Below are positions 4,616 to 64,000 of a DNA stretch of 64,000 nt, piece by piece. The notes beneath the pieces were generated by a model that saw only the letters and a list, made by a program, of their open reading frames with translations, was not told the DNA's origin and did no database searches. The translations under genes were made by a program, and so were the position numbers. Where the stretch lies: contig CAJSYZ010000009.1 in NCBI GenBank assembly GCA_910574455.1, positions 3,365,040 to 3,429,039 on the forward strand, given 5' to 3'. This stretch comes from Trichaptum fuscoviolaceum (Eukaryota; Basidiomycota; Agaricomycetes; Hymenochaetales; Trichaptaceae). Within the stretch, counting starts at the first letter, position 1; the number at the start of each line of letters is the position of its first letter.

Positions 4616-4690
4616 CGAGTCAGTGAATTCCCACACTGGCACTGACTCGGACTCCGAGTCGGAGCAACTTGAACTTGAACTGCTTCTGTC
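4616..4690. repeat. Cluster of short odd-palindrome motifs
   Basis: This 75 bp stretch upstream of the AIM9-like gene contains GACTCCGAGTC (4650-4660), CACTGGCACTGACTCGG and CAACTTGAACTTGAAC. These are the same motif families that saturate 53.7-62.3 kb. The rest of 4457-5545 shows no gene I can support. Confidence 0.6.
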
Positions 4691-44069: not shown

Positions 44070-46205
44070 CTAATGTCCGTTAGAAAGAGAAGGCAAATCT
44101 ATCGCTTGCATTTGACTTACTCGTTGAGCATCTGATCGTGCTGTAAGCTCAAGTGCAGACCTGGCGTCCGGGTCAACTATACGTTCCATACCAAAGGGTG
44201 GAGGATCGTCGACTTCCCTCATCACTCCGGACGGAATTTCATCGATTTCATCGGGTTTGTCTGCTACTCCGGGAACGAGCGGTTGCGAATTCGGATCTCC
44301 GGACGTAGGCTGCATTGCTTCCGCGCTTCCCGACTCAGTCAACAGGGCACGTTCATGTGTGTGAGGATGTTCGTCCGCTTGCGTTAGACTATCCGGGTGG
44401 ATGCTTGTCTGTGTCGTGCTAACAGAATCTACCCCGTCACCAAGGGAGACTGGCTGGCTTGATTGGGGTGGAACAGAAGCGGTATCATCGATGGCCTGAC
44501 CCACGGCTTCGGGTACGGGGCGTAGAGAACCACTGTCCGCTGTCGTCTCTTGCTGCTCCGCCTCCTCTCTCTCTCTTCTTTTCTCGCGCGCTTCAACCAT
44601 CACGGGGCGTACTTCCTCGAACAACTTCTCAACGAGGTCTGGATATCCCCAAAGAATTCCTCTACTGAACGCTAATTTAGCGCGCGGATCGTTATCCACA
44701 CTAATCCGAATTAGTAAGTTGTGTATGCGCATTAGCTGAGATCCTTACATCTCGTCTTCCCAAAGGTCAACATCCTCCAGGATCTCGTCCACGCGGTAGG
44801 CATTGTTAAAGACTGTTTCCAGAGATGTCCTAAACTCATTCTTTGCTTTCTCGGCAGGGCTTTCAGATATGCAATCCTCGGGTTCTTCTCCCCGTCCGTC
44901 CCTTTCTCCAGATTCGACGTCATCTTCCGCGTGTTCTGAACGACAGGACATGCATATACGCTCTCGAGCAGAGTGAGCTAGAGCTGAAACAGACTTCTTT
45001 GTCGCCAGCCAGCAGCTCTTGGCCGGAAATACAATGCGGCGGATGAGGATCGAAAGAAGGAACGGATCCGACCAGTCACGGTACCAGTCTATCTCGTTGT
45101 TGAGACGTGCAACGCGATTGTCGATCCCAAATGTCCTAAGCACTGCGTCAGTCGAAGGTCGAACGCTGTAGAAGAAATTAAAATACCAATAAAAATTCCG
45201 TATAAAATGATGTCGCTGATCACTCCAAAGTACCTTGTACCATCTGCGAAATTTCCTCCATACCGGCTTCCAAATCCACTTCCATACAGGTCTACAAATC
45301 CACTTCCATACAGGTTTACAAATCCACTTCCATATAGGTTTACAAATCCACTTCCATATTGGCTCCCCAATCCGGCTTACAAGATTGCTGCCCCACCGTT
45401 GTAGTTTCTCATACTTGAGCCGATAGATGAACCAAGCTGTAATTGTCAACAAGATTATGCTATGCACTCCAGTGAAGGCATTGGTTGTGAAAGAGACATA
45501 TCGAGGCTAATGCCAAGTTGTAAGTGGTTTAGTATTTTGGGTCACAAGTAGTATCTCGGGGACGTACTTGCAGAGATAAATAAGCAAAAAGGTTTAAACC
45601 AATTATGAAGGATATAGCAGCAATGATCAAAAGAACCATGGGCGCCTTGTCGAGCCACATGTGAATATAGAGTGGCGGTAGGTTATTGACATCAAATCTG
45701 AAGAGGCATTTTGTGAAACGGTGAAAAACACGGGGACAACGGACAGTGTCAGACGCTCACGTACATCGGAGACTTTCGCCAAGACATGCCCAACAAACTA
45801 CTAACCGCCGAAGTGACGCTGAAGACTAGCGACAGGAACCAGAAAAGGTTCACTACTCCTCTCAGAGATCCGGACGATTCCGAGTTTAACTGCGTATAAG
45901 TAATCTGCAGTGTGGTTGCCGACACGCTGGAGAAAAAGGTCGCGATCGTTGTGATATTGACATATCGCGTTGTATCTCTCTCCATGGCTTCGGAACTCTC
46001 CTTCTCCTTTAACCTGGGCAATTCTAATTTAATGGAATTTGAGTGTTGTCATCGTGTTGGTAGCTTGACTACTACTTACGGGTCTCTCGGAATATCTTCA
46101 ACTCTTCCACAACTGCAGCATTCGTAGCCATTTCTAGTTTAGGGAAGAGATCATTGCAAACATAATCAAGACAATCGGATAGCATCAGGGAAACTACTTT
46201 TTGCT
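44070..46205 (-). pseudogene. Four-TM protein, paralogue 3, truncated at its 5' side
   Basis: Homology to paralogue 2 begins only at LSDCLDYVCNDLFPKLEM (about 46185). Upstream DNA carries stops and unrelated repeats, so the N-terminal third is lost. The rest is well preserved: RDTTRYVNITTIATFFSSVS, GVVNLFWFLSLVFSVTSAVS, TITAWFIYRLKYEKLQRW, FGIDNRVARLNNEIDWY and ILWGYPDLVEKLFEEVRP. A long Pro/Ser/Glu/Asp tail of about 180 aa ends SLSNGH at 44070. An unusual 24 bp minisatellite lies in the coding sequence (45247-45375). It could still be transcribed from a new start but is more likely a pseudogene. Confidence 0.6.
45247..45375. repeat. In-frame 24 bp minisatellite
   Basis: About five units of the type AATCCACTTCCATACAGGTT plus TACA. 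On the minus strand they encode repeats of PVWKWICK / PIWKWICK, giving a tryptophan- and cysteine-rich stretch of about 40 residues next to a membrane segment. Paralogues 1 and 2 lack it. Confidence 0.8.
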
Positions 46206-46921
46206 TAAGGCGACTGACGCGTCCTGACGCTGCCTTAAATGGACTGAAGGGTTGCTATGCCTGTCTGAAATCTACTGATATGTTGCTATGCCTGTCTGAA
46301 ATCAACTGATGGCCTGAACACACTGAAATAAGCCAATTTTCAGGACACACTCAGTACGTCAGTACATCAGGAGGTCAGTCAAGCATAAGTAAAGACTAAG
46401 TACAAGCATGTACAATTCAAATGTCATAGTAAGTACAAATCAGTACACCAGTAATTCAGTACGCCAGTATTGTAGGCTGCGCGCTGCTTTCCTCTCGCCT
46501 TCGCTGATAAGGATGTTCATGCTTTTCGTTGTTGGCTGAGCGACTCAAGCACATTTGCCTTGTGCGCTTCGAGAATTGTCCGACTTCCGCCCAAGTGGCA
46601 TATTCTTCCTGACGCCTGAAACAATTGTCAAACATAAATTCCAGAGTTCTTACTACGGGTTTCGGGTTTTCGGAGACTCGGACATACTATTTTCAATCTG
46701 TTCCGAAAGCAATTTCTCTCTTGTCCGATTGCGCACGTTCTGATCATTTTCCCTCAAGGTCCATGTTCTTGAATTACCCTCCACCTTGAATGGTCCGCCG
46801 TAGCCGCTCGTGTCAATTCTCGTCACCGCAACCTATCGATCTAGCTCTGCTTCTACATCCTTGAGAAGCAGATTGCCTCCGGTGGGAAGTGGGGGTAGAT
46901 CTCGGTCTGGAAGTTGTTTGT
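46206..46921. other. Breakpoint region with short direct repeats
   Basis: Just beyond the truncation of paralogue 3 are two copies of TTGCTATGCCTGTCTGAAAT (near 46252 and 46284). After them come many CAGTACGTCAGTACATCAG-like units up to about 46470. No TIR pair or coding sequence was found. It may be debris of an insertion. Confidence 0.4.
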
Positions 46922-48735
46922 TCAATAGGGAGTTTTGGTCTGACGCCAGAACGATCGGTATATATCGCAAGTGTTCATACTCCTGGTTTGTTCCTTCTGG
47001 ATCATCCGAAAAGTGTTTGAGTAAGGCTTTATACTGTAGCTCGAATGCACTTTAACAAGATGACTTACGGCCGTCAGCGAATCAACAAGTATCCCATCGA
47101 TATGTAGGCAACACTCATTATCTGCAACTTCGCTCACGTCGTAAGGCTTCAGAATAAGCTTTGTGATACGCATCACTACACCTGTTCGGTCGTCCAGCGT
47201 ATTGGCAAGCCGGATTTTCTGCTTCGCGAATGCCTGGATCATCGAAAGTACGTTCTCGGTGGACAACTGGCTGATTTAGGAGGTGGTCGTGAACTTCCCT
47301 TGCCCAGCTCGCTCTCAACTCACATCGTCTTATTCATCAGCGACACAACTCACTTCGATACTGATTGACCAAGGACAGCACCACCGTAGTCCTAGATTTA
47401 AGAAAGTAAGACCACTACAGGCCGGAACAAATGACTATTCGAGAAGAGCTCACTCGAGTGGTTGATCCATCCCCTCGCACGAACGTACCACAGATCAAGT
47501 TCACTGTACCTTTCGTAATACCGATACCGTATCCGTGAGACAGAACTCTACCTTCACCATCGAGTCCTTGATGCCAACCAGACGGCACGACAGCGCAGCA
47601 TGTCCGTTCCACACGACCTTGCTCGAGGTGAACTTGATAGCGTTGCCGACAATGTTCGTAATGACCTGGCGCAGATGCAGCGAGTCACCGATGAGCTGAT
47701 CAGGAATGTCTGGGTAAACATCATATGTGAGGTCGAGGTTGTTTTGCGATGGTCGTACAACGAGAGTCTTGAGGTTACCGAAAACCGTGTGTCTCAGTGA
47801 ATACCAAACTTGCTCTATCGTCATCCTGCCTGCTTCGAACGTAGTAATTAATCGAAATATTAGCAACTGAATTCGGAAGCATCGGCGGCGGATTAGCTTA
47901 CTCTTCGAGATATCCAAAATATCGACATTAATCAATAGCAGACTCCGAGCCAAACTATGCACCAGCAGAAGACTCTCGCGCTGACTCTTATTCAAATTGC
48001 TATCCAGCGTAAACTCTTTCATGCCAATGATACCGTTCATAGGGGTCGAATCTCATGAGACGTGTTCGCCAAGAACTCCAACTTGGAGCGACTGGCAAGT
48101 TCGGCAGCTTCACGAGCGGCGGCGTTCTTCTAAATCGACTCGCGCAAGTAGTGCACAATTTAATTGATTTGATGAGTCTCAAAGGATTCCATCTCGCCTG
48201 AGCCTTTGACGGTGATGAAACACGTGAAGTCGCCGTTTATACTAGTAGCTGCAGTACTGATCTGCGCGAAACCACGCACTTCGGTCGTCAAGTTTCCGGC
48301 CATGGTGTCAACAGCCATTCTATTCGGAGTGCGTTCAGTAAAAACCACACTACACAATTCAGCGGAATGCTAGTGAAATAAACATACGTGATTTTTTGCT
48401 GTGACATGAACATTCTCGATTTCAGCTTGAACACCGAGTTTTTTCGTTCTGACTTCCCGCGCGACTTTGGTCACCCCCGCAGTGAAGAGAGCCAACTGGT
48501 CAACCATGCCATTGATGGCCAAGTCCAGAATATCACCCTGAACAGACACGCCCACGATCTCCTGCGTCAAGTCGCCACGAGCAACGGTCGTAGTCGCGAC
48601 AACAATGGTACGCACTTGAAAGTTCACCTGCGTCAAAGAAAAGTGAGACAATTCTCTCCAAGACAAAAGCGCAGCATAGGTTGACCGCCCATTTGCTGTA
48701 CTAGTAGTCACAGTCTCGAGCTCCATCGCCCCGCG
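46922..48735 (-). pseudogene. Decayed NIK1-type hybrid histidine kinase
   Basis: Remnant of a group III (HAMP-repeat, osmosensing) histidine kinase. In order on the minus strand: a HAMP repeat (VRTIVVATTTVARGDLTQEI, KLGVQAEIENV), [19 protein letters not shown] and [19 protein letters not shown]. Next come the H-box (LEFLANTSHEIRP, then MNGIIG in another frame), SQRESLLLVHSLARSLLLI, the N-box QLIGDSLHLRQVITNIVGNA, and a G-box fragment in a third frame. The end (RLANTLDDRTGVV, LKPYDVSEVADNE) matches the inter-domain part. Lesions: TAA and TAG before the H-box, both at positions where the family has Gln (CAA, CAG), a one-base deletion right after HEIRP, and another in the G-box. No receiver domain seen. 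Confidence 0.8.
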
Positions 48736-49008
48736 AAGTTGTCCAGATCAATAATTGTCTAACACATTTAGCTTCGGTTAGATCTGTGTTGATATGATAT
48801 GTTTGAAGAGCAAAGTATCCGAAATAGACGCATGTGGTTTCGCTGATGAATAAACCAGTATAAGCCTAGTAATATAATAGCAAGAAGAGAAGTCCGTACT
48901 TATAGTTCCAGAGGCTTCAAAGGTTGCGCTTATTCTCTTCCCTCGCATGCCCTCATAGATGTTCGCCACCGTAGTCCGATGCTTGTGAACTAGATGTAGC
49001 GCCTAGGT

Positions 49009-49370
49009 TCACGCTACCTTCCGGCGACTTGCTAGAGATTGGCCGGGAGATGCTGGCAGCTGTTTCATGGAAAGATGTTCGCCTCGCGTCATCGCGTTTT
49101 TCACTATCGGAGGTGTATCACATTCAACTAGAGGTATGAAGGTGTCTCGCAAGACGGTATGAGGTGGTGTTCCGAGGCCGGGGCCGGGGCCGTCAGCCTG
49201 CAATTGACGGACGCGAGATTTACTACGTTGCAATGGCGGTTTCGGCGCAGGAAACTGATATGTGAAGCGAGGGGCATCCAAGGACACATGCGCAAGGCTG
49301 GCGCGGGATCGGTCGTGTAGTTCATCTGCCCCCTCATCAATAGCGTCCTCTGCCACCTCTTCAATCGTCA
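49009..49370 (-). other. Open frame of unknown status, about 115 codons
   Basis: A minus-strand frame with a coherent basic/proline-rich composition: FTYQFPAPKPPLQRSKSRVR and DGPGPGLGTPPHTVLRDTF. Upstream in frame is GRPLTIEEVAEDAIDEGADE. It could be an exon of an unrecognised gene or part of the kinase relic. No splice partners were found. Confidence 0.3.
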
Positions 49371-49835
49371 GCGGACGGCCCTTGCCCTTCCTTTCCTATA
49401 AGGCGGTGTCGACTCTAGTTGAAGACGAAGGATTGTTACTAATTTTTGATGAAGATCACAACAGTTGGTGATGCAACATGTATCGGCCTATCCTCAGCGG
49501 GTGTCGTTCGAAAGGTAGAAGATGCTCGCTTCAGCGTGCACGTCGGAGCTCCTCTCACTATAACAAGGCCGCCCACCTTCTCCTCTCCAGGTACTAAAGA
49601 CAAATGTGAGTGATAAGATCAAGCAAGAAGCACGTTCTCAGACGTACACTATCGTTTTTTGGTTCATTCGGAAATGTTGAAGTCTAGGCGAGTTCAATAC
49701 AAGCTTGAGGGTAGGATAAAACATAACTTGTTCAGGCCAATAAGTGGTCTTATGGAATGGGTGGGGGATGGCGGAGAAGTGCTCATAACAAGACTGGAGA
49801 ACGTACACTGTGTCGTTGAGGGGACGCAGTGGTAA

Positions 49836-49915
49836 AAAGTTCAAGTTCAAGTTCAAGTGCAAGTGCAGTCCGAGTCACGGTGGCAACTTGAACTTGAACT
49901 CTTCAAGTTCCAATT
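49836..49915. repeat. Short motif cluster (AAGTTCAAGTTC, GTCCGAGTCAC, GGTGGCAAC)
   Basis: About 80 bp of reiterated AAGTTC / GAACTT units around GTCCGAGTCACGG. The motif families are the same as at 53.7-62.3 kb, transplanted into a spacer without other repeats. The stretch 49371-50173 has no supported gene. Confidence 0.5.
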
Positions 49916-50173
49916 TTAGATTTAAAGCTCCACTGGAAGCATCATCATGGCAAGCAATCCGAACAGCAGACAGACACCATTGGCGACATCTTCCAAACCA
50001 CTTTGATACCTCAGACTACGGTGATCATTCGGGAAAAAAAGGCAATTCAATAATAAATTTTAATCATGAATCTCCTGGCAACTTTGAAAGACAAGAGCAT
50101 GCGCACAACAATTTACTCGATAACTCAAGCACATTTGGTCAAACCTGCTACTGGTGGGCCTCAGCCTACTAGA

Positions 50174-51214
50174 TCAAGCCTCGAAGTTCTTGATGTACTT
50201 ATCCGGTAAGGGTGAGTGGCTTTGGCTCAGGGCCAAAGCTACAGCAAACGTGCTGTGAACGTCAATAGCTGCATCTAGTATTCCAGTACAGCAGATCATG
50301 CAAGTGAGAACTTGAAGATGGTTGATCTTGAACAACAGAATGATAACTTACACTCTTTTTGTGCCGCTGATAGCTCGTCAGCTGCCCAGTCACTCATTGT
50401 GACCTCACTACTCTTCTTGACGTTCACCTCAATACTTCTCCCACTATTTTTTCGAGCTTGACAGTCGGAGTCGGATGCTGGAACCAGAGACGAGGGTTTA
50501 AGAGCAGTTGGGACCAGGTCGGGTTTTTGGGCCAGACTTCCGGGTAGACAACGCGTGCCCAATCTGTCAGATCGACACAGGAGCGCACAGAGGTGCGAAA
50601 CTTGCGCTTTATACGCACTGCGTCACCTGCCATTTCTTCTGTTAGGCCACCTCGCAGGAGAAAAGATAAGTTATTCATACCGTTGATTCCTGCGGAAATT
50701 TTCATGACTGTACCATCCCCAAGGAGTTGCGCCAACGTAGGGGGAAGGTCAGTAAGAGTATGCGTCCTGACTAGATAAATGTGGTGTTGAACTGCGAGTT
50801 GGATGAGGTCCACGCGATGATTGGGCCCTTCTCCGCCACTTGCCCACTCGATGTCGATCGAGACAAATCTACTAGCTGGTACCTGTGGCAATGATGCATA
50901 TATTGCAGTCACTGCATTGTCCACATCCAAGCCCGTGCGACACTGTATCGGAACTATATTATGGAGCCTATATTGATGTAATTCGGAGAGAGGTGTTGGT
51001 GGTACCCCGAGAAGATCAAGAAACGTTTGCAGTTTCTTGTGTATCTAGCAACAAGTCAGTGTACAGATCTTGATATGAATGAAACAAGTACCTTCGTTTG
51101 AGCCCTTGCTGTCCACCGTTGAACGAGCTGAAAGCGGAGGACGGTGCGGAGGTGCAGGCGTGCGTAATCAAGGGAGAGGAGGATGAGAAGGATAGTACGA
51201 AGATTTGAGAACAT
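50174..51214 (-). CDS. DEDDy 3'-5' exonuclease-domain protein
   Basis: A small RNase D/WRN-exonuclease-like protein. From the ATG at 51214 an R-rich hydrophobic leader (MFSNLRTILLILLSLDYARL) is followed by an intron. The domain continues IHKKLQTFLDLLGVPPTPL, FVSIDIEWASGGE (Exo I, D-x-E), DLIQLAVQHHIYLVRT, ISAGINGMNNLSFLL, CVDLTDWARVVYP, MSDWAADELSAAQKE, and after an intron YAAIDVHSTFAVALAL (Exo III, Y-x3-D). A 43 bp intron near 50450-50492 is needed to keep frame between NPRL and GRSIEVNVKK; without it the frame ends at LEKIVGEVLR. It ends YIKNFEA at 50174. Catalytic residues appear present. Mitochondrial import is possible from the leader. Confidence 0.78.
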
Positions 51215-52252
51215 GATTCACGGTGGAATGGCTTGATGATGATCTTGGGGACAATACCCGCTCCCACTTCACACTTATACAAAGTAGTTGAAGTCAGTTT
51301 TCTGATTTCCCATTCTTCTAGAAAGAGAGAGGGAGCTATTAGTGCTTTGTACTATGACTCGGATAAACCGCAAGTTGAACTGATAGTAGGAGATGACAAA
51401 TGATTTCTTCCGGATGACTTGATTATAAGGCTTCTTTTCATTTTAAGCACAAACGAACAAGAAAATGAGTCATGTTAACTCCGAAGAAGTCGGGAGGATA
51501 CAACCCACTGCACAAGAAGCTGCTCCATCAGCTCTAGAAGGATTTCGAAGAAAGCCATGAGTAACTCACCATACAACAGTCATCCCTGTACACAACCCGA
51601 AACTTGAACTAGAACCGTGCCAAAATGGGAAATGGGCCAACTTGAATGCATCCCAACCCGCTTCGGAAGGAGTAATTTGCATGAAGGCGCGTTTCTCGTC
51701 CTCGGAGCTGAGGGAATTGCGCTGTCGGCCGATGATGGACTCATACTGCACATTGAAACCGAGTGTTCTCCGTTTAGGCGGCAATGGTGGCGGGGCAGAG
51801 GTGTTTGGCAAGGAATGGGAACACGACAAGTTGACAACAACTTGGATGATGTCGAAAATGCAGTTATATTTTTCCCTTTGCGGCATTTGCAAATTGAGTT
51901 GTGAGTCGCTTTGTCGACCTTTGTGCATGCAAGCGGAATATTGGGATGCATCAAACTGCCCGGTGATACATAGCCCCGTATATACGAATCCGACCGCGCA
52001 ACTTCGCAACCTTCCCTCTCCAGCATCCTTCCCATGTTTTTGGGCTCTTTACGCCGCTCAGGCCAGGCGAACTTAGGATTAGATGTCGATTGAGCAGGGA
52101 TCCCTGAAGTGAGAGTAGACGGTAGGGATAGAGACTCGTCCCGACTGACTGCTCAGCGCGAGTCCTGTGGCCGCTTATTGTTGAGCTTGAGATGGTCGAG
52201 GAAAAGAGGAACGATGGAACGAGAAGAAGCTGACGCGGCCATCGTTCCTTCC
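51215..52252. other. Intergenic, no gene supported
   Basis: Long overlapping frames occur on both strands at 51580-52076, but none has recognisable motifs or splice structure. Confidence 0.4.
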
Positions 52253-52790
52253 GGTGACAAGAAAGTCGGAGTCATACTGGAAAGTTGTCACTGATGAGTC
52301 GGGGATACAGGAATGTGAAGAAAATCATACCCATTTGCAGATTCCATACGCGAACGGATGTGTCCAATCCCCCTACCCCCACCCCAAGAAAAGAAGACAA
52401 TATAATTTTCGGCGTAAATCTTATGCAGATGTTCTCGGAGAACGTATAGACATTCCCCGTGCCGATGCTCCAAAGCTGAAGAAGCCCGTGAGTATTATGA
52501 TTCAAAAATTAAAAGAACAACTTACTCGAGAAGTACAGTAGTAGCTTTCGCTCACTGATTACTGCACGCATACATCCTCTCCTCGTGCCTGTGAGGGCCG
52601 GTTCAGTAACTTGCCTCTTTGCACATCCGAAACGTCGGTGATGCGTCTCGCAATTCAAAACCTGAGAGGAGCGGACCTCGGATGCAAGTGCAGCAACCAG
52701 TTTTAATGTCCTGCTCTCTGAGCTGGTCATCAGCCACCACTGACGATGAGCTCTCTGGCATAGCCCTGTCCCTCGGAGAAGGTTCACTCA
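52253..52790 (-). pseudogene. F-box/WD40-repeat protein relic
   Basis: Pieces of WD repeats in different frames on the minus strand: QDIKTGCCTCIRGPLLSG (52740-52660), HGLLQLWSIGTG (about 52485), ECLYVLREHLHKIYAE (about 52440) and GLDTSVRVWNLQMG (about 52345). Their order and wording match Cdc4/Sel10-type F-box WD40 proteins. Frames switch at least twice within 200 bp, so it is a decayed fragment. Confidence 0.6.
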
Positions 52791-52799
52791 TGATATATG

Positions 52800-53759
52800 G
52801 TTACGGATGTAACCACTCTACCATCACAAATCGCTGAAGAAGTTTGTGTTGTCAACTGTGGAGGTGGACGCGTGCGCATGTGTGCTCGCCATTGCTTTAG
52901 TCGGTGGGGGGATACGCGTCGGCATAAATCTGCGAGAGAATCCTGGGTCAAGAATTGGGGCGCCTGCTGTGGGCGCAGTAAATTGCGTAGACGGCAGTGG
53001 TTTCGTTCCTCTGCAAAAGCGGTCGAACTCCTACCCCCTTGGTTTCCATACGAGCCTAGAGCGGCGCACGAGTAGAAACGCGTCGACCCACAGGGAGCTA
53101 ACAAAGTAAGGCGCAGACGTTTTACGCGAGCTGCGCGAGGCGTTGAAACCGATAGAACAATTTGAGCGTGCCGAGACAGGCAAAGCGCGAGTCGGCAGAT
53201 GCGCGGCGGAAGAAAGAGGTCTATCAGAGTTGTACAAGGTCCCGCATGGTGTTGGGAGAGAATCGGGACGTGCAGGAGGAATTCGATGTTGAAAATTGGT
53301 AGAAAAGTGAAGAAGAGAATCTGCGGTGACTTGGGCGTTGGGATACAGTGGTAGTTGAGGAGGAGGCCATGACTACGTCAGTTCGCTACTGAAAAGTCAC
53401 TTGAGGCCATCAACGATATTATAGAGCTTACTCATCTTGGATGATTGGTTAAAGTGTGTCTGTAAGGTGGTTCCTGCCCTAGGCTGCCAGTGCCAGTGTG
53501 TAAGATGATCCCGTGTCAACTCAACTGTACATCCTACGGCAGCGGCTGTTCCTTTTTCCGATAATTGCGTAGGATGCGATCAATAGTGGAGGGTGCGGGC
53601 CAAGATGTAATCCTGGAGAGCAGAACGTAGTGTTAAACAGAAAATACACCAGGACGTAAGACAACCTGAGGAAGTTCTCTGTTAACGAGCCTGGTTGTAT
53701 GGCATGGTGACTACGGCCAGTGTTGAGCATCTTCAATGTCCACCAAGTACTATGCCTGT
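52800..53759. other. Intergenic, no gene supported
   Basis: Short overlapping frames only. The sequence becomes rich in GCCAGTGCCAGTG-type motifs from about 53485 on. Confidence 0.4.
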
Positions 53760-53940
53760 GGTAGCAACAACTTGAAGTTGAAGTCGACAACTGAGTGCCA
53801 GCCTGCCAGCCTTAGTAGTGAGTGCCACAACTTCAAGTTGAACTTGAAGTCACCGTGCCAGTGACCGGCGTGCCACTGGCACTGGCAGCCTGAGTGGCAG
53901 TGAGCCTGAGTGACTCCGACTCAGACATCACTGGCAGAAG
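53760..53940. repeat. Odd-palindrome cluster 1
   Basis: Dense block with CAACTTGAAGTTG (53768-53780), CAACTTCAAGTTG (53828-53840) and GTGCCACTGGCAC (53870-53882). Flanking partial units include GAACTTGAAGTCACC, GCCTGAGTGGCAGTGAGCC and GACTCCGACTC. Each complete unit is a palindrome with a single C/G centre. Confidence 0.8.
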
Positions 53941-54379
53941 AATTTGCCGTCCATGTCCTCTTCATCTTGCTCCCCGGAACATTGAAGGGATGAAGTAGTG
54001 ATGTTGAAGGCAACTTGAGCCAGAGGAACTTTAACACGGTGTATGTCCCCGAAACTTGAATGTTAAAGTAGAAGCACAACACAAACAAGCCTTCGGGTAC
54101 TACTAGTACGAGTACTAGTAGGCTAGTAGATACTCCTGGCAGCCTGGGGATGCGCTGCATCGTATGAGATGTGGTGATCAGTATTTACAAAATATCTTCA
54201 AGTTGAAGGTCATATCATCACACAATCAAGCAAGACATAGGCGTTTTATTCAAGAAAAAGACGACACATCATTGTTTACTATTATCGGAAAGACAAAGTC
54301 GAAACATCATTGTTTATCAGGAAGACAGATAGACTCGACGAAGTTTATACCGTGACCATATACTACGGGTAGTAGTATA

Positions 54380-57300
54380 CTAGGACAAGGGCGTCAAAGA
54401 TTTGAGTCGAGATACGCCTTCGCCGGTAATCCGAAACTCAAATGGCTCTTTGTAATGAGGATTGGAAGGATTCACAAATCCTTCCTTGGAACTAGGAGGC
54501 TTCCGTGTTTGCTCACGCACTTCCTTTGCCCAGTCCATGCGCAGAGCCAAATAAGACTGAGGTGCCCGACCATAAGGGCCATGGTTCCCCACTATCTTGC
54601 ATATCCTTTTAAGCACGTCCTGCTGTTCATAGGTAAAGAGTGGTTCCCCCGCTGTCAGGTGCAGTACGGATGGTGCGTTTTCTATGAATTTGAAGAGAGA
54701 TTCGTCGTCACCATAATAATGTCGGTCGTGGATAAGTTTATTCAAATGTTGCCTGAGTGGAGTCTCGTTCATCACCTCAAAAACGACATGTTCAGAAGAC
54801 GTAATCATCTGCATCGCGTTGGAAAGGATAACAGCTTTCTCCCTGTGCGTATTTCGCCGCTTCTCCAGATGCAGGATCTTCGATAATTTTTTTCGGTCTT
54901 CGTCATTTTCCGGCCACTTTCGCACTGGCACCGGGACTTCCGTGAGATTCGCCTGCTTGACAACTTCCGCTAGTGTGTTCAAGGATAATTGGTCGAAAGA
55001 AGCTGAGACTTCCTCAAAACTGCGCTGTATATCAGCTGGGAGAGCTTTTGGAGGAAAACCTTTGGCCGACGCATGGGGTATGTCCTCAGAGCCATAGTAT
55101 TCGATGTCGCCCTCTTCGGCCATCTTTGCAAAGAATTCCTCGAAATAGAACTTAGGCAGGTCCTTCAGATCGAGGACACCCTCTTCTGATGGATCAAGAT
55201 TTGGGAACGGTTTGCACGTAAAGTCATCTATGCTGGCATCCCATGTGGACTCCTGCTCGTCAAGTGTGGTGGCTGGCTGTTGTGAATCCAACTTCTTCAG
55301 CTTGCGATTGAGGATGACATACAACCTTCGATGGAATTCGAAGATAAGATAGAAGCGCACAAGAAAGAAACGGAACTTTTCGATGGGTTTTGCGTCAGGC
55401 GACGGCTGCCAGGAGTTTGTGAAGGGGTATTTGGATTTAAGCTTTGCTCTCGCGTCCTCTACCAAGCTCTCCAGCCTCTTTTCGGCTTCCTTCAGCGTCT
55501 TGGAGGCCCGGCCCTTCTCTTTGTCACCACACTTTGGGTCATTTGTCGTCTCCACCCTCGCCATTGCTTTGCTTTTCGCCTTATCCGCGTCCTTGTATGT
55601 CGTATCCTCCTCGCGGAAGTCTGCTAACTTGTCTTCAATCCCTGCTAACCACTCTTCGTAGCGTGCTTCCTCTGAGGATATGAGGCTTTCAGGTAAAGCG
55701 GTGAGCAGGTCATCAAACAGATGCCTTGCAATGGGAACCTTTCCGTCCCGGCGCATGGTTGGTTGGGCAGTGAACTCAGCGTAAAGCTCGTTTACACCTC
55801 TGATGAGCCCCGCTGTCTTGACACCGCCATCACCAGTAATGTCAAAAGGGGCAACCGATTCGATCTTGAATTTGTTTGGGAAAACAATGGCAAAAGCCAT
55901 ATAAAGAATGTTCCTGGCGTCCTCGAAGACGTGTCGTAGTTTAATACTACAAGCTGCCGCTTCGCTCTATGTGAGAAACTCATGAGTTTAATTTGTTTTG
56001 CAATAGCTTTCAAGATGACTTACCGATTCAGCTGCTACGGCAATGATTTGAAGCTCGCGTATCATGACAGCGAACGATGCTATAGTCCGCGTCAAAAGGT
56101 CGTCTTTGGAGCGGTCCGCCTTCCGTTCAGCATCCAATGTCTGGTCCGCCTTCCGTTCAGCATCCAATGTCTCCAAACGAGCCAGCTTTTCGTTCATTTG
56201 AAGCACCTTGTCGGTGGTGCTTCGAATCATATCAAATTGACTGTCAAGCCTTTTGCTAACATTAGCTGCCATGACGGAGTGTAGCGCATGGATGCCCTCC
56301 TCAGCTGCAGCCCTCGCAAGCATCGGGTAATTCAGGGTTGCCTGGTCCTTTATATGTTGTATCTCGTTGGAGAGAGAATCGACTTTCTCCTGCAAGGTCT
56401 TTATTGTCTCCGAGTAATCCGTGTTCTCCGATTTGGCCGCCTTTTTTTTCGTGGCTTTCAGATCTTCCCTTTTTTTCTCAAGATCTTGAGATCCAACATT
56501 CCGCATCGCCCGATCCAGCCGTTCATCCACTTTCTGTTTTTCATCAGGATTCGCCGCCCGAGCTGCCGCTCCATCCTTGAGTTTTGTTATCACCTGGTTG
56601 AGAACTTTGGCAGTCTCGACCAGCTTTCCTCCAATGTCCGTCCATTCCTTGCCCGCTTTGTCCAAGTCGCCCCCTATCCCATTGAGCATGGTGACTGACA
56701 AGTCGCTAGTTGGGTATAGGAAAGAGATAAGAAGCAATCTACACAGACTGGCAATGTCACTCACAGGTTCGTTTTCAAGTCTTCGACACTGTTTGACGGC
56801 TTGGAGTCCACGTCCGACCCAGGTTTTGCCACCCCACTGCCAGTGGCACCGGCACTGGCGGCCTCGCTGACAGTAGAATGGAATGTCATCAAGATGCAAT
56901 TAAGCTCAGGCTGGCAACACTACTCACAATTCCAAATTGGATGTGTCTGGTTCCGCCTCAGTGGCAGACGTCAAATTGCCACTGCCAACTCCTAGTCCGA
57001 CCTCAAACTCCGATTGTGACCTCAACCCGGGCCCTGCACTTGCAAGAGACTCCGAGTCGGACATGGAGACGCCGGGCCCATTCACTGGCAGGCTGTCAAG
57101 AGAATGTCCTGGTCACATACTTTGAAGGCTGGCAACATGAATGACACTTACTTGATTGCTGATTTGCCACTGTCATCTCGCTGTACCAACTGAATGAGAA
57201 ATTCAATCCATTTCACCATGTCTGACCGCGTCTTTATAAGCTCGGGCCACGGATGGGCTCCATTTTCGCCGGAAGAAACTAGTCCTGTTTGGACTTTTTG

Positions 57301-57453
57301 TGAAAGAATTGAAATTACTACTAATACTAGTTTTTGAGACATGTACTACATACCAGCTCGTCTGGCATCATCTGGACCCAGTAGCAGCCTGATTTGGATT
57401 TGATTGGGAGGCTCAGGTAGCACTGGCATGTTAGCGTGAGGGACAACAGACAT
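54380..57453 (-). CDS. Unrecognised coiled-coil protein, about 900 aa
   Basis: I do not recognise this protein. The start at 57453 (MSVVPHANMPVLPEPPNQIQ) is followed by exons encoding TGLVSSGENGAHPWPELIK, then NLPVNGPGVSMSDSESLASA, then EFEAASAGATGSGVAKPGSD, then LDLSVTMLNGIGGDLDKAGK; all splice in phase. A coiled-coil region at 56640-56050 includes the direct duplication ETLDAERKADQ / TLDAERKADRS. After an intron at about 56028-55970 comes a 506-codon exon (MAFAIVFPNKFKIESVAPFD to VSRLKSLTPLS). No signal peptide, TM or known domain seen. The SDSES and GATGSG codons coincide with the odd palindromes GACTCCGAGTC (57048) and TGCCAGTGGCA (56838). The gene is divergent from the one at 59403. Confidence 0.65.
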
Positions 57454-57479
57454 TCTGAAGGGATAGTCGTTGAGTTGCT

Positions 57480-57950
57480 GGCTTCAAGATGATGTGGGGG
57501 GCATCATGATGGGGTCCGCTGCCAGTGGCAACTAAAAGCTATTCACCGTCGGAACGTGAACTTGAAGAAGTTGATGGAAGTCGGATACTACCGCTGCCAG
57601 CAGGCCACACCGTGACTCAGGCTGACGGAGTGCCGTGAAGAGTAGTACTATATTTAAATTTAAGTACTCAGGCTAGTACTACTACTATGCCAGTGATACT
57701 ACTACTACTAGTAGTAGGACTTCCCAGCCTCACTGGCACTGGCAGTGCCACAGCATGAGTGCACCCGCTGCGAGTAGTACTACTACCGTAACTACTAGTA
57801 CTACTACTACTACTACTAGTACTTACTAGTCGAATTTGAAGTTGATGATCTCAGCAACTTGACAGCTCGGCCGCCGCAGTTCGCTTCGGAGTCCGAGTCC
57901 TCGCCGGATAGTACTATAGTAGTACTATACTTGTTTGTGTTTCACGGCAT
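57480..57950. repeat. Odd-palindrome and ACTAGTAGT cluster 2
   Basis: Contains TGCCAGTGGCA (57520-57530), GCCTCACTGGCACTGGCAG and TCGGAGTCCGAGTCC. Long runs of alternating TACTACTAC/TAGTAGTAG around ACTAGT centres occur near 57655-57720 and 57770-57830, and another near 57905-57930. The block lies between the divergent genes. Confidence 0.75.
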
Positions 57951-57990
57951 GATGATGCGGAGGCACCGTGATCATCATTATGATGGTACT

Positions 57991-58374
57991 GGATGCCTTC
58001 CCGTAAGGATTTAGGACGACGATTCTTATCCTAAATCCTCTTCCGAATATTATCCGGGAACGGAGCCAACTTTCCGGTCGACGTCGGTCGTCCTAAATTA
58101 CTGAGATCAAGGAAGGGCTCTAAACATTACAGCAGCGTTCTCACATACCATATTTAGTAGAAGTGAAGATTATGTGACGCACCCGCTTCCATTTTAAGCA
58201 ATTTTATCTATGAAAATAATCCGGCAGACCTCACCGTGGCAACCGGAAAGGAATTTAGGACCCGTCCTAGATGTTGCTTACGGTTTAGGATGGCTGTCCT
58301 AAACCTGTACCTGACGGAGTTTCAAAGATTTAGGACAGCCTCCGCCGTCCTAAATTCTTACGGGAAGGCATCCA
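57991..58374. mobile_element. MITE, 384 bp, with GATTTAGGACG-type ends
   Basis: TIRs of about 32 bp begin GGATGCCTTCCCGTAAG and continue ATTTAGGACG. The 3 bp ACT flanks it on both sides (57988-57990, 58375-58377). Inside are repeated TTTAGGAC / GTCCTAAA units. A diverged relative appears at about 58433-58640 (TGCTTCCCGTACTAAGGATT ... TCGTCCTAAATGCC). No ORF. Confidence 0.75.
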
Positions 58375-58379
58375 CTAGA

Positions 58380-59395
58380 GTAGTGACGCAGCCTGCGGCT
58401 CAGGCTGAGTCGGAAGCCACCATACTCAGGCTATGCTTCCCGTACTAAGGATTTAGAACGGCTTTTTCGTCCTACAAGTAGTATGTAGTACTAGTACTAA
58501 ACGGCACGGCTCGGAGCCAAACTCTCCGTCTTGCCCGGGCCCTAAATTTCCAGGATCTAGCAGAGGGGAAGGGTCTGCCAGATGGTCCGTGTCTAGGACA
58601 GTCGTCCTAAATGCCTGCCTTGCTTACCGTACTAGTAGTAGTATCAGGTAAGATATCATAAGTACACCCTGATACCTTACCTTCAAGTTCAAAGGTAAGT
58701 TATACCGCGGGTCTCCATGGACCGGCAGAACTTCTGCTCAAGGCCGGCGGTGGACGGGTGGCTTCAACCTCCCTAAATGCTTGCCAGCCTGAGTGCCAAG
58801 CGGGGTCTTATGGGTTTCAATTTCGGGTGTCCTAAATCCTTCATCCAGTGGCGCCACTGGCAGTGATACCGTGACTCAGGCTCAGCCTGAGCCTGAGGCT
58901 GCCACTGCAGTGCCAGTGGCAGTGAGGCTACTAGTTCTGGGAGGAAGGGCACTGCGTTCCGGAATTGCGTGATAACGCTCAGGGAAATCTGCCTCCCGTG
59001 CGAACGTCTTCAAGTTGACAAATGGGGGACTCGGACTCGGAGTAAGGGACTTGCCGGCGAAGCTCGGCCCGTTTTCTACTACTGTAGTATTAGTAATAAC
59101 TTGAAGTTGCCCCTCAGGCTCACTGCCAGTGGCACTCACTGCCAGTGGCTCACTCAGGCTACTACTAGTACTAGTAATAGCCTACTACTACTAGTACTAC
59201 TCAGGCTGCCGGTGGCATGCCACGGTGGCGACACTTGACCTTCATTCCAACTTCACTCACCGTTTGAATAACCCTTGCCATTACTTTCCTCTCAGGCATA
59301 CTACTAGTACTACTACTACTAGTATTCCTAGTAGTAGTACTCACTGCACTGCCAACTTGAAGTAGCTCAGGCTCTTCGTTCAGTCACTATCAAAT
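58380..59395. repeat. Odd-palindrome cluster 3
   Basis: Complete units: CTCAGGCTGAG (58399-58409), CTCAGCCTGAG (58881-58891), TGCCAGTGGCA (58911-58921 and 59124-59134) and AACTTGAAGTT (59098-59108). There are many partial copies and ACTAGTACTAGT-rich tracts (59160-59200, 59298-59340). It abuts the start codon of the gene at 59403. Confidence 0.8.
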
Positions 59396-59402
59396 CTCCA
59401 AA

Positions 59403-61228
59403 ATGTCAAGTTCTGATCTCGGGGATACTCCAAGCTCTTGCTTGGACACAGACGAGGACGAGGACGGTTCAGAATCCAGCTTTGGTCTCAACACTCACAG
59501 CTCAAAGTCCGCGATCATCGAAGACGAGAGCGAATACGAAGTGTATACAAATCCTGTAGAGGTTAAGTTCGGTAGGACCACATATTATCTATATTTCAGT
59601 GTGTGGTTTGGCTTATCTTCAATGACTTGTCAGAGGACCTACCCTTTGGTTATCGCTCGGGAGCATATATCGATAGCACGGTGGTCCAGTCAATCACCAA
59701 AAGCTTAGAGTCCAAGCTAGAGCATGCAAATCGCTTCGGGTTTTCGTCGAACGATTTCAAGGAAACACTTGTTCTGGCTGATCGGCTGGGGAGGTACTTT
59801 GATACGTCAAATCAGTATATCAGTAACCGGGTTAGGGAAGCACAGGCTCTGCAGAGGAAGACGGCTGTGATGCTAGACCAGTTTCGGATCAGTACATACC
59901 AGTACACGGACATGATCTTCAAGCTAGGTGAAGAACTAGCTATCCTGATGCGTTATACGGTAAGCTGCAAATTAAATCAAAAGCTTGAATGCACGTCTCT
60001 AACCGCTTGTTCTTATGGTAATGCGCTATAGCCCGAGGAGCCACTTGAGCTGCTTATCCGCAAGCGTGTGGAGGAATCAAGACTTGCTGTCGCCACGGCG
60101 TTCATATCTGTTCTTCCCGGCTTTTTCCCGTCAGGGAAACTCATCAATGTTTTCACTGGGGACGTCATCTGGGATAATTTCTTGTCTTGCTTAGTCGCCC
60201 GATATCATTCACACCATGCAATCGTGCGTTGGCAACGTAAATTTGAGGATGAGGAGGCCGGCAATCGATTGATACAGACAAAATCTGTCTTTTCTGCCAT
60301 AAGGATCGACATCAAAGGCACAAAGCTCGAGGAAAATGTTCGTCGTGAACTCTCTGCTCAATTGAAGCACTTTACGCCAGTCGTGGGCGTGAATCTTAAA
60401 GGCTCTACAAGCAGGCCCCGAAACCCAAGGCTTGCGCTCAAGTTCTTTCTCCCCCTACTTATTTGGTCATATAACGAGTGCAAGGATTGGATCGTCTTCC
60501 TAGACAAATGCCGTGCGGAACAATTGCCAAAGTCGCCCGTTGGTCAACTCTCAGAAGCAGAAGTCAATTGTTCTGCGACTCAGGCGACTCCGACTGTCTT
60601 TCAATCCGGAACAGCACGAGAGGCTCGGCGTCGATGGAAACGTGAACTTGAACGTGCCGGTGGAGAAGCTGCTCTAGCTGACTTTCATCGACTCATTCAG
60701 AAGTCAATGGATATTCTTGGCGTCGACTCGGCTGATGGTGGAACGTCCTCATTGGAGAATAATCGACAAATCCAGCGCGAATACGGAAATTATTCGGTTG
60801 TTCTGCGCAGGTTCAACTGGATCAGGAAATGTTTAATCATCCTCTGTGATGATTCGCTTCTGGATCTGTTGCTCATGAATGATGGTGCAATGCAGCGCTT
60901 CTCCAGGGAGATGGACTTTGCTAGGCTGGGCATTATCGAAGTGACTCGAGCCATTAGGCAATTTGACGATGCTGATCGCAAAGATATAGACAAGGAAAGA
61001 CTCGACAGGGCCGCCGAATTTCTCCACGAAGATATGGAACACATCGATCATGCCCTTATTCCGGCAGAGCAAATTTTTGACTCTTTACTCCTGAAGACAG
61101 TCGACGATTTACTTCGTAATTATGGTCCATTTTATTTAACAGATTATGGAATCCTATTTGCTCTTCTCGACAAATTGGATCCCATCACGGACACCGACTC
61201 GGATGTCAATATGAGCTCGGCGATGTAA
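59403..61228 (+). CDS. Unrecognised protein, about 560 aa
   Basis: I do not recognise this protein. Start MSSSDLGDTPSSCLDTDEDE gives an acidic, Ser-rich N-terminus. A short intron (about 59562-59599, boundaries uncertain) leads to VWLIFNDLSEDLPFGYRSGA. A clear intron at about 59959-60030 joins LAILMRYT to PEEPLELLIRKRVEESRLAV. The long last exon includes ISVLPGFFPSGKLINVF, ALKFFLPLLIWSYNECKDW, YSVVLRRFNWIRKCLIILCD and FLHEDMEHIDHALIP, and ends DSDVNMSSAM. Predicted mostly helical and soluble. It is divergent from the large gene at 54380-57453 and convergent with the Plavaka transposase; cargo of an element is possible but unproven. Confidence 0.6.
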
Positions 61229-61359
61229 CTGGCGGTTGCATATTGGACCATTCCCCGACACGAAGTGTTCTAGGGTTCACCAGCGCGCGATTCAAGTTTA
61301 AGTTGTGGCCGTGTTAAATTTTTATTTCGTTTTACTATGTTTATGACAAAAGTCAAGGA

Positions 61360-61900
61360 CTCGGATTGTACTAGTACTACTCATTCTATGCCAGTGCTTA
61401 CTCCCTTTTCAAGTTTAACTTAAAGCTCCTCTCGCACTATGCTGCACTATTGGTAGTTAGTACTAGTAGCAACTATGTGACATCGTTTTCTTGATTACTA
61501 CTATATACTGCAAAAAAATTATTTATTTATTCATAGCATATGCTTCAAGTTGATAGTACTACCGTGACTAGTACTACTAGTAGTCTGTGTTCAACTTGAA
61601 CTTCAACTTCAAGATGGTTAAATTAGAACTTGAAGTAGTACTAGTAGTAGTAGCAGCCTGAGGCAGGTTATTGGTTCATTTCCAGTTGTTGGCAAGTTCC
61701 ATGTTATTGTACACTTTTTACTTGAAGTTTTCTATGTTCATACTAGTAGTACTAGTACCAGTAGTAGTAGTACTCAGCCTGAGGCTGCCAGTGCACTGCA
61801 GCAGTGGGAAATTTTGACCACTGCCACTGACAGTGGCATCCGACATGATCCAACTTGAACTTGAAGTCTAAGATGCACCGACTAGTAACACTACAATTCT
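61360..61900. repeat. Odd-palindrome cluster 4
   Basis: Trinucleotide ACTAGTAGT tracts (61369, 61558-61585, 61638-61655, 61740-61775) alternate with GTTCAACTTGAACTTCAACT, CAGCCTGAGGCTGCCAGTG and CCAACTTGAACTTGAAG. The spacer lies between two convergent genes. Confidence 0.7.
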
Positions 61901-61998
61901 AGTATAGCTAGTACCATAATCCGTCACTGAACATTTAAATGTTATATCCTTACTTCATAAGTTTCAAGGTACTTTGTGAGCTAAATGAGGGTTTATCT

Positions 61999-64000
61999 TT
62001 ATTGTTGCCTACTTTCGTACAATGTTTCATGCATGTGCATGTCAGCAAATCGGTTAACATAGAATCTATTGTAAAAGTCCAGGGACTCCTCAGGTGTCAA
62101 TGACTTCGGAGGACATTCATCACCCTCTGGAACCCCAAGGAGGTGAGCTAAACGGAAGATACTCCCTAGAGCTATCACGGATAACTTTGGAGTTTTTGAG
62201 TCACCGTGACGGGGGTAGCCTGACTCCGAGTCGGAGGTGTCATTCAGGTCACTCCGGCGAGTCCGAGTCAGCGGTTGACGGCAACTTCCAATAGTACTAC
62301 GCTGGCACGCGGTAGAGGTCTCTGACTCATACTCTGGCTCGACTATCCACATTCTTGTTTTTCTGTCAGGTGAGTCTCCAACGTTCTTGAAAAACTGGAC
62401 AAGGGCGCATTCCTGACGTTCTCCATTGGCGGTGAAGGAGAAAAGAAGCATAACCCGAGCAATTCGCATCCCTGCAAACCCCTTTTTGCGAGAACTAACT
62501 TGGACAAGAACGACATCACGTCGTGGTTTTCCGCGCCAAGAGGGATTGGACCTGATCACCTCCCTCATTGCTTGCTCTATAGGAATTGATTCGCCGCGGT
62601 AGGCGAAATACGCGGTAGCTGAATGGAAGATGGCAATGTCATTGCCCATGTCCAGTGCAAACTGTTGTTCGGCTATCAGGCTTTCAGAAGCGCTTCCGAG
62701 GTCATAGTATCCTAATTCGTTCAAGTTGCACCTTTCGTACTTGCAGAATAAGTATATTTTGATGAGTCGTCGGAGCTGTCGGAGTTCCGGATGGCCTTTT
62801 ATCGCCGCAAGAGCGTTGAGCTGTTTGGGGTACAGCTTACTGGACTCTGTAAGGATAGCAACGAATAAGTCAGATATCCAGCGCCACAATTTGAAGCTCG
62901 TGTTACTGACGTTGTTTCGAAGCCATTAACATCAAGCTCGAAGGATCACTTCTACCACCTAAGCAAAACCGATGTTCTGTATTTTCCACATCATGAAGAA
63001 CAACACTACTTTGCAGTCCTTCCACTGATGAAGTGCTGAAATCATCCAGGTCAGCAATTTCGTTGTGCCCTTGATTACCCACAGTGCCATCGAAGAAATC
63101 ATCTGTATCATTGGCTGCTCCTGCCACACCAATACACTGCAACTGCTCCCTCTGATTCGGGATCCTCTCAGCATCATCCTCCTCCGGCTCTGACATATTC
63201 TTCCGCAGAACATCTCGCAAAACTTTCCACGTAGCCTCGGATAGCGTATCGTCTAGCATTCCACGCCGTTTGAAGTCTGACCTCGATGCAATAAGTTTGC
63301 TGAGTCGTTGGTTTGCTGTGATCATCTGGCCCAAGGGATCATTTCTGTTCGAGCGTCGCCACGTTTCTTTGACCGCATAAATATGTTTATTCTCTGTAAT
63401 CGATGAACACAGCCCGCTCGGTGCAGCAAACAGAGGGATCAATGTTGGATAATGGACCATAGCATGCTGTCGTGGTAGTGAAAAGTTATCCCGGATGCCC
63501 TTAGCTATGAATATTTGCCGATAACGGTGAAAGTGATCCAAAGAGGCTTTGATTTGATCAAGAGTTGAGGCTGTAATCGTGTACCGACGCACAAGGTAAC
63601 AGAAGTCTAGAAATGCACTTAATGTGCGAATCATATCATCGTGTGCAATGCCCACGATAGCCGGAAGATACACCTAAGCAAATTGCATCAAATATCAGCA
63701 AACCACTGCCTCGAACAAGATAAAAAGGTCACATACTTTCATAAGTGCCTTAGAATCATTGCCTGTCCATTGCTTGAAGCCTCGGCCTTCGGGGAATCTG
63801 CGAAGTCCAGGAAAAGGAGCAGCAACTCTGATTCTACGCGGATGTTAGCAATGGTATTTACATTAAACAACTTGCGAAAAAAATCACCTTTTATCCACAA
63901 TATCCAGCTCTGACGTGGTCAAGCTCTGACATATCCACTCGACAAGATGATCCTTGAACACGCCTTTGATGATTTGGTGCAGCAGGTCCGGAGATATGAG
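61999..64000 (-). CDS. Plavaka-type (CACTA-like) transposase, C-terminal part
   Basis: The gene enters from the right edge, so its start is outside the window. Exons on the minus strand carry PDLLHQIIKGVFKDHLVEW, FPGLRRFPEGRGFKQWTG, YLPAIVGIAHDDMIRTLSAF, LDFCYLVRRYTITASTLDQI, FSLPRQHAMVHYPTLIPLF and GLCSSITENKHIYAVKETW. After a variable acidic region come LYPKQLNALAAIKGHPELRQ and ALVQFFKNVGDSPDRKTRMW, and finally YNRFYVNRFADMHMHE. These are standard Plavaka segments of Agaricomycetes. An odd palindrome (GACTCCGAGTC, 62222) is in frame as SDSES. The junction near 62890-62903 is not cleanly resolved, so an intron or frameshift is possible there. Confidence 0.88.

Follow-up and report, generated by a model that had tools for sequence, protein, structure and literature searches.

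Clustered palindromes in Trichaptum fuscoviolaceum as probable nested excision footprints of PlavakaB-type DNA transposons

Introduction

Why should one stretch of a fungal genome be crowded with short palindromes that have a design in common and no common sequence? The question is raised by 64,000 bp of Trichaptum fuscoviolaceum (contig CAJSYZ010000009.1, positions 3,365,040 to 3,429,039), referred to here as the window. A first-pass annotation of the window, made from its letters alone, had listed odd 11-bp palindromes in which one of four 5-mers (TGCCA, CTCAG, AACTT, and GACTC) is followed by a central C or G and by its own reverse complement. It had offered three readings, namely fold-back replication, a palindrome-seeding element akin to RPE or mitochondrial GC clusters, and binding sites for dimeric factors. 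That interpretation is partly supported by our results and needed replacing, as it had overlooked the order of C and G, the 8-mer unit of the repeats, and a giant transposon of 25,352 bp that begins within the window. We argue here that the palindromes are probably nested excision footprints of DNA transposons of this type, PlavakaB.

Results

Palindrome counts

All 13 listed palindromes were confirmed (TGCCA at 53871, 56838, 57520, 58911, and 59124; CTCAG at 58399 and 58881; AACTT at 53769, 53829, and 59098; GACTC at 4650, 57048, and 62222). The window holds others as well, namely CTCAG at 61773, CACTG at 6 sites, and TACTA/TAGTA at 20 sites. Between 53.7 and 62.3 kb, 68 odd 11-bp palindromes were counted, about 8 times the number in 20 first-order Markov control sequences (8.3; standard deviation, 3.5), and 59 of the 68 had C or G at the centre. 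The surplus was modest between 1 and 53.7 kb (71 vs 53.4; standard deviation, 7.4). In the whole genome, surveyed as one assembly of 59.1 Mb in 12 contigs, TGCCASTGGCA (S, C or G) occurred 1672 times per strand and its reversed pattern 51 times, and TASTASTASTASTAS occurred 5275 times (overlapping matches counted) against 235 for its reversed pattern. By protein matches the genome is that of an Agaricomycete, the nearest named proteins being from Botryobasidium and Ramaria at 41 to 43% identity. Chance and base composition are thus excluded as the source by both the Markov controls and the reversed-pattern counts.

In a random sample of 20 pieces of 10 kb (200 kb), all odd 11-mers taken together were at expectation (222 vs 211), whereas those built on N2-S-N2' words, N2 being a dinucleotide and N2' its reverse complement, were far above it (TACTA, 16 vs 0; CACTG, 6 vs 0; AACTT, 4 vs 0.2). 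Counts at the shuffled level, which the first-pass annotation had named as evidence against its proposal, were therefore found for the total of all words and not for these. The feature is genome-wide yet clustered, and the claims of a common design without a common sequence, of a C or G centre, and of clustering were all correct.

Repeat unit

Each of the listed 5-mers is itself an odd palindrome N2-C-N2' (AA-C-TT, TG-C-CA, CT-C-AG, and GA-C-TC). This shared form had been overlooked in the first-pass annotation, which called the 5-mers unrelated. It follows that the sequence forms a chain (N2 S N2' S)n whose unit is the 8-mer N2-C-N2'-G-N2. The listed 11-mers, N2-C-N2'-S-N2-G-N2', have the form that two nested events would give. 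One degenerate consensus, a possibility that the annotation had set against its own view, thus does in effect explain the motifs, in the form of a rule and not of a sequence.

When all letter pairs X,Y in N2-X-N2'-Y-N2 were compared, the pair C,G stood out in the random sample (202 vs 45 expected), followed by GG (97), CC (88), and GC (74); the other twelve pairs reached 42 to 68, with expected counts of 44 to 51. Within the element itself (25 kb), C,G reached 132 vs 8 expected. The classes with a clear excess in random DNA were AA, CA, GA, AG, and TA, with a weak excess for AC and none for CC, CG, AT, or GC. For the AA class in the whole genome, AACTTGAA occurred 9448 and 9515 times on the two strands and AAGTTCAA 2888 and 2885 times. 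Scaled up to the whole genome, the surplus in the random sample corresponds to about 46,000 units. Alternative scar forms were not enriched in that sample (N2-CG-N2, 792 vs 764; N2-C-Y'-G-N2, 174 vs 188), and the form with single-base spacing was up by 11 to 17% for all four bases.

Units were denser outside the long open reading frames of the element (6.88 per kb) than inside them (1.42 per kb). In random DNA, long frames held 31 C,G vs 18 G,C units, and the remaining sequence held 171 vs 56. Clustering between element genes could arise if the units were kept by selection as sites where dimeric factors bind, or if they were bound by the transposase within its own element; the gap in density would also be seen if insertions into genes were selected against. 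The rule alone unites five or more unrelated N2 classes, about 46,000 copies are extrapolated, and exact hexamers are gained and lost between copies of the element (see below), which binding sites do not predict. We therefore regard binding sites, one of the three readings first proposed, as very improbable.

Order of C and G in chains

If N2 were turned repeatedly into N2-C-N2'-G-N2, the letters of a chain would form balanced brackets, with C as "(" and G as ")". Chains of the classes AA, CA, AG, GA, and AC were counted in random DNA, the window, and the element. Four loci included in an earlier count (L001 to L004) were left out of the final one because the pattern by which they were fetched favours CCGG. 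Among two-letter chains, 221 of 384 read CG and 42 read GC (25% each by chance). Of 22 four-letter chains, 16 were balanced and 1 was anti-balanced (12.5% each by chance); the balanced ones were nested (CCGG) in 10 cases and side by side (CGCG) in 6. Two of six six-letter chains were balanced and one was anti-balanced. No such order was seen in the remaining non-TA classes (CG, 19 of 87; GC, 18).

In longer TA arrays on contig C1, taken from the first 100 places listed and possibly including mutual copies, C-before-G pairs outnumbered G-before-C pairs in 37 of 42. TA arrays differ by 3 bp between copies; slippage therefore probably blurs the order in this class. The nesting of 10 of the 22 four-letter chains departs from a microsatellite, in which copies of one unit lie head to tail, and the TA arrays are partly microsatellite-like. 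Fold-back replication, as first suggested, does not predict C before G.

Within the window, chains cluster at 53484 to 54207 (with the listed TGCCA and AACTT palindromes), 56834 to 57062 (with TGCCA at 56838 and GACTC at 57048), 57516 to 57930 (for the most part TA arrays), 58398 to 59360, and 61368 to 61867. The fourth cluster includes the chain starting at 58875, CTCAGGCTCAGCCTGAGCCTGAGGCT, which parses as ()(()()). A nested GA chain, GACTCCGAGTCGGAG, parsed as (()), lies at 62222 to 62236. Outside the element, a GA chain ()(()) and an AA chain ()() lie at 4644 to 4681.

The 25-kb transposon

The five clusters lie in a repeated element with sharp copy ends at window position 46183 and at L025:7534 (window-equivalent 71534). 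Among match rows, 16 of 18 for the left part start at 46183, and 16 of 21 for the right part end at L025:7534 to 7540. The left 17.8 kb occupies 46183 to 64000, and the element continues beyond the window. It is flanked by the dinucleotide AG (left copy at 46181 to 46182, plus strand; right copy at L025:7535 to 7536). The left terminal inverted repeat, CATCAGGGAAACTACTTTTTGCTTAAGG (46183 to 46211, plus strand), matches the reverse complement of the right end at 86%. The ends are inverted repeats beginning CATCAGGGAA and read CATCAGGG..CCCTGATG, in agreement with the CATCA..TGATG ends of PlavakaB; with the terminal bases set off, they are C-ATCAGGG...CCCTGAT-G. Allowing at most 3 mismatches, the end motif was matched 374 times on one strand and 349 times on the other, and the control 7 and 5 times.

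Three pieces just past the window, at L025:319-1516 on the minus strand, match the profile of the Plavaka transposase (PF18759) in order (profile positions 4 to 110, 103 to 167, and 167 to 242; E values of 5e-24, 9e-27, and 6e-22). Judged from the profile match, the ends, and the 2-bp duplication, the element is classed as a PlavakaB-type DNA transposon. Its other frames include one of 506 amino acids from its ATG, without a Pfam match (54380 to 55966, minus strand), one of 303 amino acids (55988 to 56899, minus strand), one at 60032 to 61228 (plus strand), and two at 61999 to 62925 and 62903 to 63673 (minus strand). No TET/JBP match was found in the frames scanned.

Several further features lie within the element. 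Two frames (47501 to 48052 and 50424 to 51044) match histidine kinase (HisKA) and 3'-5' exonuclease domains weakly, below threshold, and are perhaps captured host genes. The 303-amino-acid frame holds a perfect 30-bp tandem duplication (56113 to 56172). A short inverted-repeat element at 57987 to 58377 has 51-bp arms that are 82% complementary, with ACT flanking both sides; it was rejected as a useful independent family, as the 40 full-length matches scored were all about 100% identical.

Target sites

The same dinucleotide was found on both sides in all 8 copies of which both ends could be read (AG, TA, TG, GC, AA, TG, AT, and TC); in two further pairs the right end lies beyond the fetched piece, and two loci gave a single end. 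The target survey covered the first 100 of 448 family-end matches listed, with 97 distinct flanks, and the target counts given here and in the Discussion are among these. Of 29 facing end pairs, 25 had 2 bp in common and none had 3 bp; two of the four failing pairs were more than 50 kb apart and possibly not true pairs. Three paralogous empty sites on contigs C4 and C9 carry a single AA where the filled site on C2 has AA on both sides. A search for a further empty or scarred site found none. None of the 97 flanks matched the element or the window exactly, so that insertion of the family into the element itself was not seen among them.

A 3-kb family member sits between the same flanks at C1:18259-21312, 18 kb into its contig, and at C2:120537-123594, 120 kb into its contig; these contig ends therefore appear duplicated. 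In the C1 copy one flank letter is changed and the duplication is mismatched.

A C preceded N2 at 25 of 50 symmetrised insertion positions, and in 6 of 25 cases, vs about 1.4 expected, both sides fitted C-N2-G. A footprint lay inside the insertion flank in 4 of 97 cases vs 0.7% of random 14-mers. Target classes and footprint excess were correlated (r = 0.77, p = 0.0096). The preference for C-N2-G equals the core of the unit, and the same transposase might act without excision, by an abortive cut at C-N2-G followed by hairpin closure and repair at sites where the element never was. Scars were never seen in a filled state and the empty sites found are scar-free, as such cutting would have it. 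The target alone, however, lacks a source for the added C and G, both of which excision would provide from the element ends, and we consider abortive cutting unlikely.

Differences between copies

The 506-amino-acid frame had 88 matches in the genome, 42 of them full-length and 13 at 100% identity, including that of the window itself. The window was compared for insertions and deletions with L027, with L026 up to 60.8 kb, and with a further fifteen copies that are partial; L028, which departs from the element after 56.1 kb, was left unused, and 12 of the copy pieces cover 56.8 to 61.4 kb unevenly. There were seven distinct 6-bp differences, five of which turn N2 into N2-C-N2'-G-N2; 90 of the 4096 possible hexamers could obey this rule by chance. 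All five are on the plus strand. Two lie outside chains: AACTTG at 54053 to 54058 is missing from L026 and L027, and L026, L027, and L070 have an extra CACTGG between 57446 and 57447. TGCCAG at 59124 to 59129 is missing from L026, L027, L054, L056, and L058, and TACTAG at 59302 to 59307 from these five and L052. An extra CACTGG between 58913 and 58914 is most simply a gain, because it was found in L052 alone among the 11 copies covering the site. Single-base changes were few in chains, and most base differences of L026 and L027 lie in the frames and at about 57.2 to 57.5 kb. As a control, a hAT-like family showed one 6-bp difference in 9 aligned sequences, which did not follow the rule; the family is too uniform for this negative to weigh heavily, and the control has low power.

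Chains could also be built as a palindromic microsatellite if replication slipped, or folded back and switched template, at short palindromes, with the transposon as a merely neutral collector. The 3-bp shifts of TA arrays between copies, the position of three of the five rule hexamers in chains, and a mild rise of spaced same-dinucleotide words are in its favour. Slippage of a 6-bp unit would give CGCG and not the nested CCGG, which is the commoner form (10 vs 6); C before G, the isolated differences at 54053 and 57446, and the match to the end letters and duplication length of the element are likewise not predicted. Slippage as the source thus appears improbable, if a little less so than abortive cutting.

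Within the 506-amino-acid frame, at 55440 to 55670, about 28 of 300 bases differ between otherwise near-identical copies, as if two variants had changed places. A 1,647-bp element with TAGAG-type inverted ends and the 8-bp duplication ACGAGGAC is present in one copy of the transposon (L026:6294-7940). It appears hAT-like by its ends and duplication, and its relatives elsewhere are 76 to 99% identical.

Other features of the window

Host-type genes outside the element are an AIM9-related kinase of the APH family (2580 to 3944) and a frame that matches CFEM at the borderline (34863 to 36074). Six GAACC-N-GGTTC odd palindromes, which are outside the N2-C-N2' design, lie within 400 bp at 11016 to 11412. 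No tRNAs were found within the window.

Discussion

The unit requires a C, a G, and N2 twice outside and once inverted; the element begins with C, ends with G, and duplicates N2 on insertion, and the excision reading thus fits. We infer excision as the source of the hexamers and a hairpin on the flanks as the intermediate. The element would insert at N2 and duplicate it, giving N2[C...G]N2. On excision, one terminal element base would stay on each flank (a C at each 3' end), and the flank would close as a hairpin. Off-centre opening of the hairpins would leave a 3' tail N2-C-N2' at one side and, on the opposite strand, N2'-C-N2. The tails would pair through 2 bp, and filling in would yield N2-C-N2'-G-N2, which adds 6 bp net to the site. 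The tails would always be complementary over 2 bp because N2 has been duplicated, and this obligatory pairing would explain the uniform outcome. An inverted N2 is present in the unit, and this reading would imply an earlier insertion at each scarred site.

The new C-N2'-G would resemble the favoured target, so that later insertions may land in older scars. Since a footprint holds C-N2'-G and the family prefers C-N2-G, footprints would re-seed themselves, and this would account for clusters and nesting. If each insertion picked one of a unit's three N2 at random, side-by-side and nested forms would stand at 2:1; they were seen at 6:10.

Several results weigh against this explanation. CC (64), GG (59), and GC (53) are also raised in the element, vs about 8 expected for each; chains of at least three letters and TA slippage would be a source of this surplus. 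Words with the dinucleotide in the same orientation are raised about 1.8-fold in the random sample (N2-C-N2-G-N2, 103 vs 57; N2-G-N2-C-N2, 91 vs 51). Short TA chains are unordered (13 CG and 14 GC among 43). Two of the seven hexamer differences, GCTCGG at 57240 and CTTGAT at 59356, break the rule, and slippage is possible for the three rule hexamers that sit in chains. No empty site found carried a scar, and no locus was seen in empty, filled, and scarred states. The rank correlation of target and footprint classes is 0.60 (p = 0.07). Of the classes used as targets, AT (9 of 97) and CG (5 of 97) have no surplus of footprints in the random sample; AC has some footprints and none of the 97 targets. 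Other PlavakaB families may contribute to this mismatch. Finally, known hairpin footprints are variable, and the units described here are uniform.

With these points taken into account, we still hold nested excision footprints to be the probable explanation. On balance, though with some reserve, we also think that a RAG1-related fungal transposase has left uniform P-nucleotide scars of 6 bp by the tens of thousands in its host genome, that scars breed scars because each contains the favoured target C-N2'-G, that repeat-like DNA with a bracket grammar thereby builds up, and that bracket depth records rounds of insertion and excision at each spot. If so, puzzling palindromic repeats would become a countable history of transposon excision, legible from one assembly. 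It would further suggest that the hairpin end joining of a RAG1-related enzyme works in a fungus, with a uniform outcome set by the 2-bp duplication. Any mushroom genome could be scanned for the signature, an excess of C,G over the other 15 letter pairs together with bracket order.

Among known systems, RPE, mitochondrial GC clusters, and ultra-short mitochondrial elements are likewise short noncoding palindromes that come and go. RPE and GC clusters each have one conserved element sequence; here at least five unrelated N2 classes occur, and the window has no match to an RNA family of Rfam. The first-pass annotation was right that something seeds palindromes, and the kinship that it proposed with these elements does not hold. 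In Fusarium mitochondria, palindromic (A)n/(T)n repeats of a similarly unstable, noncoding kind have been described (PMC7218506). Fixed sequences or homopolymers are thus found in those systems, whereas the target dinucleotide dictates the sequence here.

RAG1/2 leaves P nucleotides, which are also inverted copies of flank bases ascribed to hairpins. Footprints of Ac/Ds are described as palindromic copies of flanking DNA, with hairpins as the explanation (PMC4561436), and flank hairpins are made by Hermes and Kat1 as they are by RAG1/2 (PMC4763223). The proposed scars would be alike in their inverted flank bases. They would differ from those of Ac/Ds, other hAT elements, and RAG1/2 in three ways: one element base is retained per side, all scars have the same outcome, and they form chains by nesting. 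In mPing, excision repair proceeds via microhomology of the target duplication (PMC4561436); there too the repair outcome is set by pairing within the duplication, and mPing restores the site, whereas 6 bp would be added here. PlavakaB elements are described with CATCA..TGATG ends and 2- or 3-bp duplications, PlavakaA elements with TGT..ACA ends, and motifs common to Plavaka, EnSpm, Transib, and RAG1 are reported (Kojima 2025, PMC12730594); the word "footprint" is absent from the main text of that paper. The present element shares the Plavaka transposase domain, the ends, and a 2-bp duplication with them and differs in its length of 25 kb and several extra frames. In the open-licence literature searched, no account was found of Plavaka footprints, of nested or chain-forming footprints, or of such a bracket grammar. 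The palindromes are most likely kin to the known excision scars.

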